From NCBI RefSeq assembly GCF_017876495.1, contig NZ_JAGIOB010000001.1, forward strand, positions 3,658,001 to 3,722,000: 64,000 nt of DNA, read 5' to 3'. This document shows, piece after piece, positions 4,627 to 9,965 of this stretch. The stretch is from Microlunatus capsulatus (GTDB lineage Bacteria > Actinomycetota > Actinomycetes > Propionibacteriales > Propionibacteriaceae). The notes beneath the pieces are model-generated. The model saw only the letters and a list, made by a program, of their open reading frames with translations, was not told the DNA's origin and did no database searches. Numbering within the stretch: position 1 is the first letter of the stretch; the number at the start of each line of letters is the position of its first letter. Made by a program: the position numbers and the translations under genes.

Positions 4627-5600
4627 CCGCTCGCTGACCCGGGACCGACCAGGGCGCCCACCGCGGCGTCCAGGTCGGTCCAGGTGAAGCGGAAGCCCGC
4701 GTCCAGCAGGGCGGTCGGGACGGCCCAGCGGCTCTTCAGCAGCAGCTCGGACTCCTGGCGGAGCAGCCACATCCCCGGCTCGAGCAGCCAGCGGGGCACC
4801 GGCACGCCGACGGGCATCCCGACCGCGCGGCGCAGCGCCGCCATCAGCCCGCGGTTCGTCCCGGCCACCGGGGCGGCCAGGTTGACCGGCCCGGACAGGT
4901 CGTGGTCCTCCAGGAAGGCCATCGCGGCCAGCAGGTCGTCGACGTGGATCCAGCTGAACCGCTGCTCGCCGTGCGTGCGGCCGTGCGGCGCGGCGGGGCC
5001 CGTGGCGTCGGCGCCGATCCCGTCGTAGCGGTGGTGGGGGAACCACCAGCCGTCCAGCTGCGGCCCGCCGAAGCCGGTCCGGGCCGCCCGGGCCAGCATC
5101 GTCAGCGCGGGCCCGTCGCCCAGCACGATCGCCATCCGCAGGGCCACCCGGCGGGTGCCGGGCAGCGCGCCGGCGAAGAGCTCCCGCTCCCAGGCCCGGG
5201 CCACGTCGACGGAGAAGCCCGCGCCCAGCTCGCCGTCCGCCTCGGACTGCGGCCGGTCGGTCGCGTGCCGGTAGATGGTCGCGGTGCTGGCGTTCAGCCA
5301 CAGCCGTGGCGGGTCCGCGGCGGCGCTGACGGCCCGGTGCAGGGCCGCCGTGGTGGCCACCCGGGAGTCGTGGATGACGGCGCGGTTGCGCGCGGTGTAG
5401 CGGCAGCCGACGCTCCGGCCGGCGAGGTTGACGACCAGGTCGGACCCGTCCACGAGGGCCGCGAGCCGGTCGGGCTGGTCCCAGCGCGCGTCCGGCCCGG
5501 TCCGTCCGACGACGACCACGTCGTGCCCGCGGGCGGCGAGGTCGGCGGCGACCAGCGGCCCGAGGAAGCCCGAGGCCCCGGCCAGGACCGCCCGGCTCAC
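4602..5600 (-). CDS. TIGR01777-family NAD(P)-dependent epimerase (DUF1731)
   Basis: A 332-residue Rossmann-fold protein of the extended SDR, YfcH-like family. It has the nucleotide motif [11 protein letters not shown] at the N-terminus, the [11 protein letters not shown] segment specific to this family, STATIYRH, the central [13 protein letters not shown] and the C-terminal DUF1731 region. The substrate is unknown for the family. The GTG start at 5600 overlaps the stop of the upstream serpin gene by four bases (GTGA), so the two are translationally coupled. The 3' end overlaps araA tail to tail. The last dozen residues extend beyond the usual family end. Confidence 0.85.
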
Positions 5601-6895
5601 GAGGCCGCCGCCGTCGGGTCGACGACCTGGACGAGCAGCAGCGGCAGCCCGGTCTCCACGTCGTGCAGGCAGGCCAGGTAGGGCCGGTCCAGGGTCAGCT
5701 CCAGCGGCGTCGAGGGGGCGCTGACCGGCTCCATCGTCACCCCGGTGGCCGCGGCCGCCTCCAGCCCCTCCTCGTCGAGTGCCAGCCAGCCCTGGTGCTG
5801 CACCGCGGCCACCAGCAGCCGCTCGGCGCGGGTCATGCCGTCGAACTCGGCCTCGGGGGTGAAGGCGCGGCGCATCCCCAGGCGCCGCAGCGCGTCGGTC
5901 AGCTCGAGCGCGGTGCGCAGCTCGACGGGCGGCATCCGCAGGGCGACGCCGCGGTCCGGCTCCCGGCGCAGCAGGTTCGCGAGGCCGTCCCCGCGCAGGG
6001 CGGGGCGCAGCGTGGCGAGGTCCACGTCGGGCCGGATGACGGTGAGCGCCAGCTCGTCCCCGGCCAGCGGCACCCGGGCCGCCGTCCAGCCCTCGCCGAT
6101 GGCGCCGCCCCCGGGGAGCACCGTCGCCATCGACGGCACCGTCACGGGCCCCCCGGGCGCGGCGAACTCCAGCGGCCCGCCCGGGTCGAAGGCCTTCCGC
6201 CACGGCGCGCGGACGTGCAGGGCGTTCGCGAGCACCATCCGGGTGCCGGGCCGGACCGACCCCTCGGGCATCAGCTCCTCGATGCGGTCGTGGGTCTGGT
6301 CCGCCACCCAGGCGTTGACCGCCCGCCGGGCCGCCTCGGGATCGCCGGCGAGGTCGGTCTCGGACACCCCGGTGCCGAACCACGCCGCGAGGTCCTCGAG
6401 GAACGGCCTCTCCCAGGCCGAGCCCTGCTGCCCCCAGACCCGGTTCGCGGTGTCGAGCACGACCGTCGTCTTCTTCCCGGCGGCGTTCTCCCGCCGCCCC
6501 GACCGCGTCCCCAGCAGCTGGTCGAGGGCGCTCAGGCCCGGCCCCAGGGCGGCCAGGTCGGGCAGGTGCAGGGCGGCGTCCATCTCCTCAGCCGTGGTGC
6601 CGGTCGCGCCGTACCGGACCATGGCCAGGGCCACCAGCACCGACCAGGGCGAGCAGACGAGGTTCCCCTCCTCGCCGACGGCGTCGAGCAGGTCCGCGCC
6701 GAAGGCGCCCACCGCGTCCACCAGCGCGGGGACCCGAGCGGGGTCGCCCGGCCGACGGGCGACGTCCGCGGCGACCAGGTCGCCGCCCGCGGCGGCGCAG
6801 CCGGCCAGGCCGCCGGCCCCGGCCAGGGCGGCGAGCCCGCCGAGGGCCAGCAGGGTGCGGCGGGGGAGCAGGACGTCCGCGGTCCGGGGACTCAT
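5597..6895 (-). CDS. Serpin-family protein with lipoprotein signal peptide
   Basis: A 432-residue serpin. The N-terminus has a twin-arginine-like PRR followed by a hydrophobic stretch ending in LAGC, a lipobox, so the mature protein should be anchored outside the membrane. Serpin landmarks include NLVCSPWSVLVALAMV, ANRVWGQQG, LANALHVRAPW and the reactive-centre hinge DEEGLEAAAATG, then the shutter strand LDRPYL. The alanine-rich hinge is typical of inhibitory serpins, but P14 is Leu rather than Thr or Ser. By counting 17 residues from the hinge the scissile bond would be near Val-Ser in EPVSAP. A -10 box TAGCCT lies seven bases before the ATG. Target protease unknown. Confidence 0.88.
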   Translation of the reverse strand: MSPRTADVLLPRRTLLALGGLAALAGAGGLAGCAAAGGDLVAADVARRPGDPARVPALVDAVGAFGADLLDAVGEEGNLVCSPWSVLVALAMVRYGATGTTAEEMDAALHLPDLAALGPGLSALDQLLGTRSGRRENAAGKKTTVVLDTANRVWGQQGSAWERPFLEDLAAWFGTGVSETDLAGDPEAARRAVNAWVADQTHDRIEELMPEGSVRPGTRMVLANALHVRAPWRKAFDPGGPLEFAAPGGPVTVPSMATVLPGGGAIGEGWTAARVPLAGDELALTVIRPDVDLATLRPALRGDGLANLLRREPDRGVALRMPPVELRTALELTDALRRLGMRRAFTPEAEFDGMTRAERLLVAAVQHQGWLALDEEGLEAAAATGVTMEPVSAPSTPLELTLDRPYLACLHDVETGLPLLLVQVVDPTAAAS

Positions 6896-7009
6896 GGCCC
6901 GCAGGCTAGGCGCGGCGGAGGGCGCGCAGCCAGGGCGGGGCGCCGGTCGACGCCGCATCGTGACCGGACGGCTGGCGGGCCGGGGCCGCGGTGGTCCACG
7001 ATGGGCCGG

Positions 7010-7173
7010 GTGAGGTGGTGCTACCGGCGAGACACGGTCCCTCCGTGGACCGGCGCCCGAGGAACCCTCCGGTGACAGCACGTCGACCCTGCCGCAGGAC
7101 CGCAGGTGCACGCCTGCGCTCCGCGCAGCTCGGCACCCGCACCCGCACGACCGGTCGCCCGGCACCACCTCAC
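7010..7173 (+). ncRNA. Retron msr-msd non-coding RNA (candidate)
   Basis: A perfect 12-bp inverted repeat, GTGAGGTGGTGC at 7010-7021 and GCACCACCTCAC at 7162-7173, brackets 140 bases. It matches the a1/a2 arms that pair the ends of retron RNAs. Inside, 7035-7052 forms a small msr-like hairpin (CGGTCC/GGACCG, 6 bp, loop CTCCGT). The 7082-7134 segment folds into a long interrupted stem with an apical hairpin CGCAGG/CCTGCG at 7101-7118, as expected for msd. The unpaired run after a1 contains G7029 and G7031, candidates for the branching guanosine. A -10-like CACGAT at 6997-7002 would place the transcript start at about 7009-7010, the first base of a1. The RT begins 44 nt after a2. Confidence 0.75.
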
Positions 7174-7217
7174 GCCCCGGGCCGCGGCCGTGCGCTCCTC
7201 CGGACCGCGGACGCCCG

Positions 7218-8558
7218 GTGAGGCGCGCCGACCCCGTCGCGCACGTCGCCCGGGCGCTGGCGTGGGCCTTCCTGGCCGCGCCCGCCTGGACCGAGCCGGA
7301 GCTGCGCCGCTCGGCCTGGACGACCCTGGGCCGACGGCACCGCTGGGTCACCCCGCTGGTCCGGCTCGCGCTCGTGGTGCACCGGACCGCACCGACGGGG
7401 CAGCCCGCCGAGCTGGCGCGGCTGCTGGCCGGCACCGACGAGCTTCCGGCCGCGCTGCACCGGGCCGCCCGCCGCGGCGCCCCCGTCCGGGTCCGGGTGG
7501 TCCCGGCCGTGCCGGCTCGGACCGCTTCCCCGCGCTGGCCCGTGCCGGAGGTGGCGGGCGCGCCGGACCTCGCCCGGCTGCTCGGCGTGCCCCTGGAGCA
7601 GTTGGACTGGCTGGCCGACGCCCAGGGCCGGCAGCGCCGCACCCCCGCCGGGCCGCTGCACCTCTACCGCTACCGCTGGGTCGAGCGGCCGGGCGCCGTC
7701 CCGCGGCTGCTCGAGGCGCCGACGCCGCTGCTGCGGCACGTCCTGCGCCGGCTGCTCGACGAGGTGCTGGTCTGGGTGCCCGCCCACCCCGCGGCGCACG
7801 GCTTCGTCCGCGGTCGCAGCGCGCTGAGCCACGCCCGGCTGCACGTCGGTGCCGCGCAGGTGGTGTCGCTGGACCTGCGGCACTTCTTCGCGGCGGTGAC
7901 CGCGGCGCGGGTGCGGGGGCTGTGGACGCTGGTCGGCTACCCCGAGGGCGTCACCGCCCTGCTCACCGGGCTGACAACGCACCGCACCCCGGTGCACGTG
8001 CTGACGGCGATGCCCCCGGGCGGCGACGCCAGCGCGCGGCACCTGCTGCGCGCGCGTCTGCGCGCCCCGCACCTCCCGCAGGGCGCGGCGAGCTCTCCGG
8101 CGCTGGCCAACCTCGCGTGCGCCCGGCTCGACCGCCGCCTCGCCGGCTACGCCGCGGCGCTGGGCGCGACGTACAGCCGCTACGCCGACGACCTGACCAT
8201 CTCCGGACCCGCCGACCTCGCCGCGCCCCGGCTGGTCCGCGCGGTGTCGGCCGTCGTCGTCGAGGAGGGCTTCGCGGTGAACCCGGCCAAGACGCGGGTG
8301 CAGCGGTCCTCGGCCCGTCAGCAGGTCACCGGCGTCGTGGTCAACGCCCGGACGAGCGTGCCGCGGGAGGAGGAGGACCGGCTGCGGGCCGTCCTGCACG
8401 ACGCCGTCCGGAACGGCCCCGACGCGGCGAACCGGGCTGCCGTCCCCGATTTCCGGGCGCACCTCGAGGGCCGGGTGGGCTGGGTGAGCGCGGTCAACCC
8501 CGTCCGCGGGGCCCGGCTCCGTCGACAGCTGGACGCGGTGGTCTGGCCCGGGCGCTGA
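7218..8558 (+). CDS. Retron-type reverse transcriptase (Mx162-like clade) with N-terminal extension
   Basis: A 446-residue RNA-directed DNA polymerase. Residues 160-440 carry the RT palm and fingers: AAHGFVRGRS (193-201), catalytic Asp219 in VVSLDLRHFF, LPQGAASSPALANL (286-299), YADD at 322-325 with both catalytic aspartates, VNPAKTRV, and VTGVVVN at 370-376. HARLH (205-209) takes the place of the retron NAxxH motif. From memory the sequence aligns block by block with the Myxococcus Mx162 RT, including HGFVxGRS and the VTG motif. Residues 1-150 form a helical, Arg/Ala-rich extension (VARALAWAFLAAPAW, LGRRHRWVTPLVR). The GTG start at 7218 follows the msr-msd region. No maturase or endonuclease domain is seen. 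Confidence 0.92.
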   Translation: MRRADPVAHVARALAWAFLAAPAWTEPELRRSAWTTLGRRHRWVTPLVRLALVVHRTAPTGQPAELARLLAGTDELPAALHRAARRGAPVRVRVVPAVPARTASPRWPVPEVAGAPDLARLLGVPLEQLDWLADAQGRQRRTPAGPLHLYRYRWVERPGAVPRLLEAPTPLLRHVLRRLLDEVLVWVPAHPAAHGFVRGRSALSHARLHVGAAQVVSLDLRHFFAAVTAARVRGLWTLVGYPEGVTALLTGLTTHRTPVHVLTAMPPGGDASARHLLRARLRAPHLPQGAASSPALANLACARLDRRLAGYAAALGATYSRYADDLTISGPADLAAPRLVRAVSAVVVEEGFAVNPAKTRVQRSSARQQVTGVVVNARTSVPREEEDRLRAVLHDAVRNGPDAANRAAVPDFRAHLEGRVGWVSAVNPVRGARLRRQLDAVVWPGR

Positions 8559-8567
8559 GCCGTCGGC

Positions 8568-8891
8568 TCAGTGGCTGTCGCCCACGAGCTTCAGCCCGAT
8601 GACGCAGCCGACGAGGCCGAGGATCAGCAGCACCTTGACCAGCGAGACGGGCTCGGTCCCCGTCAGCATGGCCCAGGTGACGGTGCCCGCGGCCCCGATG
8701 CCCACCCAGACCGCGTAGGCCGTCCCGGTCGGCAGGTCGCGGAGGGCGAAGCCGAGACCGGCCATGCTCAGCAGCAGGGCGACGCCGAAGACGACGGTGG
8801 GCACCAGCCGGGAGAAGCCCTCCGAGCGGCCGAGGGCCGTGGCCCACACCGCCTCCAGGACCCCGGCGACCACGAGCACGATCCAGGCCAT
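8568..8891 (-). CDS. gdx: Guanidinium exporter of the SMR family (Gdx/SugE)
   Basis: A 107-residue protein with four transmembrane helices, the standard size of small multidrug resistance proteins. Glu13 in VLEAVWA is the essential proton and substrate-binding glutamate, and YAVWVGIGAAGT matches the Gdx signature WxGxG in helix 3. Gdx dimers exchange guanidinium for protons across the membrane. The assignment to Gdx rather than a QAC pump is strongly supported by a guanidine-III riboswitch directly in front of the gene. A ribosome binding site AGGAGG (plus-strand CCTCCT, 8902-8907) lies ten bases before the ATG. The gene converges on the retron RT, stopping ten bases from its 3' end. Confidence 0.92.
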   Translation of the reverse strand: MAWIVLVVAGVLEAVWATALGRSEGFSRLVPTVVFGVALLLSMAGLGFALRDLPTGTAYAVWVGIGAAGTVTWAMLTGTEPVSLVKVLLILGLVGCVIGLKLVGDSH

Positions 8892-8907: not shown

Positions 8908-8953
8908 GCACGCCAGTCTTGTCGCTGTCCGGGTACTGGGTGGCCTCGTCCGG
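8908..8953 (-). promoter_or_regulatory. Guanidine-III riboswitch (ykkC-III) controlling gdx
   Basis: Read on the minus strand, the leader contains CCGGACGAGG, then GTACCCGG, CAG, GACAAGAC and GGCG in the order and spacing of the class III guanidine aptamer known from Thermobifida fusca. The pairing is preserved although the stem sequence differs: CCAGT pairs with ACTGG and CAC with GTG. This is covariation relative to the known aptamer, which has GCGCCGT/ACGGCGC there. The aptamer ends at 8908, immediately abutting the ribosome binding site AGGAGG, so translational control is likely: guanidine binding to the pseudoknot should raise exporter synthesis. The alignment is from memory. Confidence 0.88.
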
Positions 8954-9020
8954 CGGCGTGCTGACGCCGTCCCGGCAGCCTAGCCGAGGACCCCGGTCCG
9001 GTCAGCCCTAGAGTCCCCGG

Positions 9021-9965
9021 GTGGGAACCGCAACCGACGCACCGTCCGCCGCCCCCGGGCCGGACGACCTGGCCGCCGCGTTCGGCCTGGTCGACGTCGG
9101 TCCGGGCTCGCTGTCGCCCTGGTCGGCGGTGTTCCGCGCGACCGCGCCGGGCGGCGCCCCCGTCGTGGTGAAGCGGACCGCGCACCGGGCGGAGAACGCC
9201 CGGGCCATGGCGGGCTGGACCACCGCCGCGGCGGCCGCCGGGTTCCCGGTGGTGGCCCCGGTGCCGCTGGCCGTGGACAACCCCCAGCGGGTGGGTGAGG
9301 ACTGGTGGGTGGTCTACCCGTGGGTGGAGGGCGAGGTCTACCGGGGCGCGCGGGAGCAGGTGCGCCAGGCCGGCGACCTGCTGGGCCGCCAGCACGCCCT
9401 GGCCGTCGACGCGTCCGCTCTGCGCGGGTACCGGTGGCCCGACGTCGACCCCGATGCCGTGGCCGCCGAGCTGGCGGCGCTGGCCGGGCGGGTGCCGGAG
9501 CCGGAGCTGCTGGCCGACCTTGCCGGCCGCTGGGCGCGGCAGCTGCCGGCGCTGCGCTCGGCCGGGCTGCCCGCCGCCGGGGTCAGCAGCGACTTCAAGG
9601 CCGTGAACCTCGTGTGGGCGGGCACCCGCGGCCCGGTGCTGGTCGACCCGGACAACGGGGGCCGCGAGCCCCGCCTGTTCGACCTGGCCCTCGCGGTGCT
9701 GCTGTTCCACCACGAGTGCCCCACCGCCCCCGGCCGGCTCTTCGACGCGGGGGAGTGGGCCACCTTCCGCGACGCCTACCGCGCCCACGTCCGGCTGGAC
9801 GCCGCCGAGCAGCGGCTCTGGGCCGAGACCGTCGACCACCTGCTCTGGGAGGAGGGCAGCTGGGCCCTCGCCGACCAGGACGACGACGCCTGGGCCGACC
9901 CGCGGCAGGGGGCCTTCCTCCGGGACCTGGCCACGACGCGGCTGGACCGGTTCCCGCTGACCTGA
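9021..9965 (+). CDS. Aminoglycoside phosphotransferase-like kinase family protein
   Basis: A 314-residue protein with the APH/choline-kinase fold: VVVKRTAHRAEN holds the ATP-binding lysine, VVYPWVEGEVYRG is the hinge, SSDFKAVNLVW the catalytic loop, and LVDPDNGG the metal-binding Asp-Pro-Asp. The catalytic loop has Ser-Ser-Asp where most members have His-Gly-Asp, but the Asp and the Asn five residues later are kept. The substrate is unknown; the fold also includes sugar, homoserine and drug kinases. The GTG start is exactly seven bases after a -10 box TAGAGT (9009-9014), which implies leaderless translation. It is divergent from gdx. Confidence 0.75.
   Translation: MGTATDAPSAAPGPDDLAAAFGLVDVGPGSLSPWSAVFRATAPGGAPVVVKRTAHRAENARAMAGWTTAAAAAGFPVVAPVPLAVDNPQRVGEDWWVVYPWVEGEVYRGAREQVRQAGDLLGRQHALAVDASALRGYRWPDVDPDAVAAELAALAGRVPEPELLADLAGRWARQLPALRSAGLPAAGVSSDFKAVNLVWAGTRGPVLVDPDNGGREPRLFDLALAVLLFHHECPTAPGRLFDAGEWATFRDAYRAHVRLDAAEQRLWAETVDHLLWEEGSWALADQDDDAWADPRQGAFLRDLATTRLDRFPLT

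Follow-up and report, generated by a model that had tools for sequence, protein, structure and literature searches.

Layout of the Locus

The window analysed here, a 64,000-nt stretch of the Microlunatus capsulatus genome, carries a reverse transcriptase (RT) gene preceded by a short, structured region closed by two complementary arms. A sequence-only reading of this DNA had described such a layout, and its elements are indeed present: an exact 12-bp inverted repeat (7010-7021/7162-7173) enclosing 140 nt, msr-like and msd-like hairpins between the arms, the main two at 7054-7074 and 7102-7140, and a 446-codon ORF that starts 44 nt 3' of the second arm and carries the LPQGA, YADD, and VTG motifs. 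The features of the locus are listed below.

7010-7173, + strand: msr-msd non-coding RNA, 164 nt from a1 to a2, matched by covariance model R1 at 7005-7174
7010-7021, + strand: a1 arm, GTGAGGTGGTGC, extended by a T7022-G7161 wobble pair; covaries in relatives
7026-7030, + strand: 5' side of helix 1b, GGCGA, pairing with 7155-7159; hand-assigned
7031, + strand: predicted branch (priming) guanosine, the G after helix 1b, in an AGA context
7035-7052, + strand: msr stem-loop 1, CGGTCC/GGACCG, sequence-variable; read by eye and outside model R1
7054-7074, + strand: msr stem-loop 2 (helix 2), with a conserved GAGG-AAC-CCTC core
7075-7154, + strand: predicted msDNA template span, 5' end near 7154 and 3' end within 7075-7101, deduced from the layout together with the branch G and helix 1b
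7102-7140, + strand: msd stem-loop (helices 3 and 4), 7102-7109/7133-7140 and 7114-7119/7123-7128, loop TCC
7155-7159, + strand: 3' side of helix 1b, TCGCC, with GG just before it; hand-assigned
7162-7173, + strand: a2 arm, GCACCACCTCAC, the exact complement of a1; covaries in relatives
7218-8558, + strand: retron RT, 446 aa, GTG start (Pfam, PADLOC, tree, and Foldseek)
7218-7472, + strand: N-terminal domain of the RT, residues 1-85, five helices predicted by AF2
8181-8192 and 8325-8333, + strand: RT motifs YADD and VTG, with LPQGA at residues 286-290; read from the sequence and alignment

Taken by itself, the 12-bp repeat is weak evidence, as it is marginally unusual in GC-rich DNA and not clearly beyond chance: when the 400 nt preceding the RT were dinucleotide-shuffled 200 times, 12 of the shuffles held an exact inverted repeat of at least 12 bp with a span of 60-320 nt. 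Since shuffling can reach the repeat alone, the case for the RNA was made by comparison. A scan for sigma-70-like promoters and intrinsic terminators, which suits actinomycetes poorly, found none in 6850-8700.

Conservation and Covariation of the Upstream RNA

The upstream regions of 14 RT loci were aligned on sequence alone (alignment A1), and RNAalifold folded these 14 rows into 30 pairs, with two-sided changes at 19 of them. Covariance model R1 (170 positions) was derived from 14 RT-upstream regions; the window scores 128.8 bits against it, being itself a training row. In A3, an alignment of 21 rows fitted to the structure by the model and containing one spurious antisense row as well as the weak L032, 93.3% of cells are paired and two-sided changes occur at 23 of the 30 pairs, a level reached by none of 500 shuffles; shifting the pairing partners along the alignment destroys the signal. 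What gives the a1/a2 repeat its significance is conservation in relatives, helix 1 showing two-sided changes at 8 of the 9 pairs counted. Msr stem-loop 2 has 94.4% of cells paired and such changes at 4 of 8 pairs, and in the msd stem-loop, helices 3 and 4 have 95% and 100% of cells paired, with two-sided changes at 11 of 13 pairs.

The sequence-only reading had proposed building a covariance model from regions upstream of the homologous RTs, and had held that homologues lacking an upstream repeat would speak against a retron. The homologues keep the upstream RNA instead: R1 recovers it upstream of the RT at 20 of 21 related loci or remnants outside the training set (E < 0.001). These include L012, L013, L036, L031, and a remnant in genome G098 (L017); the Dietzia, Tsukamurella, and three Burkholderia loci (41.9-51.1 bits); and all 10 new class-level loci (37.8-75 bits), among them L124, where the C-terminal part of the RT is all that is matched. 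The 21st, from an uncultured Granulosicoccus, matches weakly (E 0.02-0.07), and Acidisphaera is also among the related RT loci with an R1 match upstream. At E ≤ 1, R1 matches none of 14 RT loci outside the clade defined below and none of five group-II-like loci. A scan of 197 genomes of the family at E ≤ 0.01, with stricter filters, gave 14 genomes, namely the 13 with a close RT and G098 with its decayed copy, and the spans of the family-level matches are 163-187 nt, the G098 remnant aside. The window's own genome (4.41 Mb, one contig) holds one good copy, the next best match having an E-value of 1.68.

Comparison with the closest relative, L039, goes in the same direction. The RNA is identical at 158 of 164 positions (96.3%), a higher share than in any of the five other stretches examined, with 80% for the RT DNA, 67% for the stretch before the RNA, 41% for the gap after it, and 72% and 77% for two flanking stretches. 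A search of 6900-7300 against Rfam 15 returned chance matches only, far below gathering scores, and the RNA has no Rfam family.

We, therefore, reject on comparative evidence the idea that the inverted repeat and hairpins arose by chance in GC-rich DNA beside an RT with no dedicated RNA. The shuffles that yield a repeat at least equally long speak for it, and the repeat itself does not exclude chance; compensatory changes, matches at non-training loci, and genome-wide specificity leave it next to no probability.

Predicted Anatomy of the RNA and of Its msDNA

Inside the arms, the ends of the RNA can be joined by a second helix, 1b. In 23 loci where we assigned it by hand, four of its positions are paired in 22, 22, 23, and 23 loci as raw counts; the replacements GTGA/TCAC, ACGA/TCGT, CCGA/TCGG, and TCAA/TTGA occur among the loci, and the helix was left unassigned in L017 and L032. 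When the rule was applied to 10 further loci, 7 fitted at the expected place, a number that does not represent independent fits since L115, L117, L118, and L124 are close kin; two displaced matches (L119 and L120) were not counted, and L122 has none.

A G directly follows the hand-assigned helix in 22 of the 23 loci, the context being AGA in the window and AGC in the relatives from Burkholderia and Acidisphaera. AGC is described as the usual priming context of known retrons, with AGC and AGA contexts both reported (PMC6868368). The position of helix 1b and these contexts suggest by analogy that G7031 is the branch guanosine. Of the elements that follow, msr stem-loop 1 was read by eye, and the single-sequence fold pairs 7035-7052 otherwise. 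The msDNA had been expected to end at 7137, which we revise: the second helix and the GG preceding its 3' side place the predicted first copied base near 7154.

The Reverse Transcriptase

The RT matches Pfam RVT_1 (1.2e-17) and, as its best PADLOC models, RT_other (PDLC02949, 531 bits over residues 5-444) and RT_outgroup (PDLC03740, 503 bits over residues 8-443), both of which match all 15 rows of protein alignment A4, window included (row L035 begins 11 residues early, within the RNA). A third, RT_XIII, gives 290 bits over residues 109-441. The NCBIfam group II maturase model, with a cut-off of 300 bits, scores 45.7; a DUF4853 match at residues 336-400 was discarded, its score being below its own cut-off. 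When the AF2 model of the RT (mean pLDDT 89.8, pTM 0.66) was searched with Foldseek, the first 18 structures were retron structures, ahead of any group II RT, the best being Ec86 (2.8e-18, TM 0.76 by target length).

Setting the RT against retron RT clades, as had been suggested, places it on the retron side of a 40-row tree: it lies in a 22-row clade (100/99), with 13 further rows on the same side (100/100) and five group-II-like rows apart (100/100), the labels "other retron" and "group-II-like" being our own. L012, L019, L023, L025, L028, and L030 were removed before the tree was built, and L013, L017, L033, and L037 were not extracted. A placement in group II or among DGR RTs had been named as the result that would overturn the retron reading; the tree answers the group II half, and the DGR half is answered by model and fold ranks, the tree holding no known Mx162-type, DGR, or DRT row.

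At the motif level, VTG, here in the Y region, is listed as a retron motif, and NAXXH in region X is given for 59% of retron RTs (PMC4244168). Region X reads HARLH in the window, with H209 invariant in A4, and NARAH and NAARH in L005 and L006. Models, fold ranks, and tree concur that this is a retron RT and not one of the group II maturase type.

One also has to consider that the RT might use the RNA as a template in a non-retron way, giving repeated or unbranched cDNA as in ncRNA-associated DRT systems; DRT2 and others are described as likewise pairing an RT with an adjacent structured RNA, and the Drt2 model does match the RT weakly, at 31.2 bits. We find this improbable, given the 503-531 bits of the retron models against 31 for Drt2, the presence of VTG, the conserved G that terminates the a1/a2 closing stem, and the retron-side position in the tree, one without a DRT row.

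Ahead of the RT fold lies the five-helix N-terminal domain, for which AF2 gives a mean pLDDT of 88.4 over residues 1-106 alone. The region has no Pfam match, and Foldseek against the PDB returned nothing at E ≤ 0.001 (best E 1.6). An HMM built from 11 close rows matches those 11 together with L038, the three Burkholderia rows, and Acidisphaera (E-values of 1.4e-14 to 6.4e-4 for these five), i.e., 16 rows of the 22-row clade. It finds nothing in the clade rows L032, L034, L035, L036, Tsukamurella, and Dietzia, nor among rows outside the clade; the domain, thus, characterises most of the clade but not all of it. In L036 (genome G494), just 63 nt separate the end of the RNA from where residue 99 would lie, leaving room for about 20 residues only. 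A structural or RNA-binding role for the domain seems to us just as likely as an effector role.

Relatives and Distribution

Some RT match at E ≤ 0.001 occurs in 33 of the 197 family genomes; RTs of the close kind (E ≤ 1.5e-33) are found in 13, 9 of the 20 genomes in the window's genus and 4 in other genera, and the next genome stands at 1.4e-21. Counting the window's own genome each time, 5 of 396 genomes of the phylum sample have a match at E ≤ 1e-40, and 13 of 393 of the class sample at E ≤ 1e-60 with alignment A4. Named relatives come from Acidisphaera and the uncultured Granulosicoccus, and others from plasmid records of three Burkholderia, Tsukamurella, and Dietzia. In the tree, RTs from other genomes of the window's class group with the Tsukamurella and Dietzia RTs, and one genome of that class, G867, has gene order in common with the Tsukamurella record. 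The peptide patterns used found no relative among viral contigs; phage records gave eight distant matches.

Three genomes from a different genus of the family carry a separate set of similar RTs, as open frames of 364 aa (L018, L019, and L021), unaccompanied by this RNA; in the tree, L018 and L021 fall outside the clade.

Several relatives are damaged. In G028 (L013) and G085 (L012), the RT is split in two frames next to RNAs scoring 105 and 82 bits, so the RNA can persist after its RT is broken; G850, G867, and G494 have a stop inside the matched RT stretch, and in G657 the C-terminal part alone is matched. A decayed retron was noted at the sdhB/epimerase site of G098 (L098, 838-1228): its RNA lacks the msd part, the last 54 residues of its RT are recognised in one frame, and a longer alignment runs through six stops.

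Such damage, together with the patchy distribution (9 of 20 genus genomes plus one remnant) and the lack of a recognised promoter in 6850-8700, might suggest a retron by descent that is silent or decaying in this genome as well. Against this, the ORF is intact with its YADD, and the RNA is the stretch most conserved with L039; we hold such a decay to be very improbable.

Neighbouring Genes

The genes around the retron encode a serpin, an SMR transporter, an APH-family kinase, and a flotillin-like protein. Three neighbouring features deserve mention in their own right:

5597-6895, - strand: serpin-family gene adjoining the retron (225.6 bits)
8568-8891, - strand: SMR-family transporter gene, with the riboswitch just upstream
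8908-8973, - strand: Guanidine-III riboswitch (45.7 bits, E 2.6e-6)

Bacterial serpins are uncommon. The SMR transporter under its Guanidine-III riboswitch is likely a guanidine-controlled exporter.

Neighbours were clustered in two rounds, of 18 loci (228 ORFs) and 31 loci (1120 mechanically called ORFs; L045, which gave no RT ORF, was dropped), and neither revealed a gene family specific to the surroundings of the RT. Four families recur in at least three of the 31 loci (in 6, 5, 3, and 3), the two largest being, in our reading of their sequences, probable ABC ATPases and SDR dehydrogenases; all other recurring families are pairs, many of them from shared gene order. These loci are partly non-independent, since the window and L039, L044 and L046, L069 and L133, and the Burkholderia loci share surroundings or kinship; the sites of the window and L039 are common by descent, as are those of L044, L046, and the G098 remnant. 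With no locus-specific recurring family in either round, a conserved neighbour was rejected as effector.

No linked or fused effector of the tripartite type was recognised at the locus, and the N-terminal fold could still be an unrecognised one; any effector would be either part of the RT, for example this helical domain, or a gene elsewhere. As PMC8867640 describes other retrons that also appear without a clear effector, the lack of one here is not unheard of; our literature search for effector-less retrons gave nothing related among the matches listed.

We also looked for empty sites. The window gene at 9021-9965 is unmatched in the other genomes of the 20 in the genus, the search with the flotillin-like gene led to no syntenic empty site that was followed up, and the sdhB/epimerase site common to G125 and G107 holds the decayed copy in G098, with no clean empty site among the loci fetched.

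Interpretation

The locus shows what is expected of a retron: an RT placed among retron RTs, YADD and VTG, and an msr-msd RNA closed by a1/a2 arms upstream of it. The observations underneath are a conserved and covarying RNA, its co-occurrence with the RT clade, and the position of the RT among retron RTs. We, therefore, consider with a probability of about 0.88 that this is a complete two-part retron (RNA at about 7010-7173 and RT at 7218-8558), a predicted msDNA maker without a linked effector gene. Counting against it are the often damaged relatives, the lack of a recognised promoter or terminator in 6850-8700, AGA in place of AGC, a hand-assigned helix 1b that misses the expected place at 3 of 10 further loci, the weak Granulosicoccus match, the structure-fitted alignment A3 with its antisense row, and an N-terminal domain that is not in all rows.

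The two-part retron would operate as follows. RNA and RT are probably on one transcript. The ends of the RNA would be closed by a1/a2 and by the second helix GGCGA/TCGCC, leaving G7031 at the junction; the RT would bind the RNA and prime DNA synthesis from the 2'-OH of G7031, the putative branch point, then proceed leftwards across the msd hairpin, starting at about 7154, and halt before the msr hairpins. The expected product is a branched RNA-DNA molecule whose DNA part is roughly 55-80 nt long. By analogy with other retrons, the locus may act in phage defence.

A different view of the same parts is that RT and RNA form a self-contained retron that occurs across phyla; the N-terminal five-helix domain would be its effector or sensor, restrained by msDNA, making a separate toxin unnecessary. 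We regard this as unlikely, the more so as 6 of the 22 clade rows gave no match to the domain and G494 could hold only about 20 residues ahead of the RT core.

For the two-part retron that we favour, the present work provides a tested RNA model and a predicted branch point and msDNA ends for a little-studied group that PADLOC files only as "other" or "outgroup". If msDNA is made, this would be an actinomycete retron that might serve high-GC hosts as a native supply of single-stranded DNA. Its lack of a linked effector makes it a clean test of whether a retron RT and its RNA alone can act.

Comparison with Known Systems

Retrons have been predicted earlier in Actinobacteria (PMC6868368). The 531 and 503 bits to RT_other and RT_outgroup mean that a public defence library, PADLOC, already covers this RT family, whereas the RNA has no family in Rfam 15; the RNA is well supported, and the retron has unusual features. 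Type XIII RTs are the next best model, but leave the first 108 residues uncovered, and in contrast to type XIII retrons, no family-specific partner gene was seen next to the RTs of the present clade.

Mx162, Mx65, Sa163, and Ne144 can be set beside our locus by description: an extended N-terminal region is reported there too (PMC6868368). The same source gives for Mx162 a 241-nt transcript and a 162-nt msDNA, against 164 nt from a1 to a2 here, length not being known to define a group, and for Mx162 and Sa163 the branch motif CAGC, where AGA is predicted here.

Ec86 (Eco1), which aligns with the present RT, also carries, with variation, the motifs from which the sequence-only reading took its Mx162-type label, a label that stays putative here. 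It is the best solved fold match (TM 0.76), its solved chain of about 310-320 residues lacking the N-terminal stretch; Ec86 was solved with a separate effector, as the title of 7v9x indicates, whereas none was found linked to the present locus.
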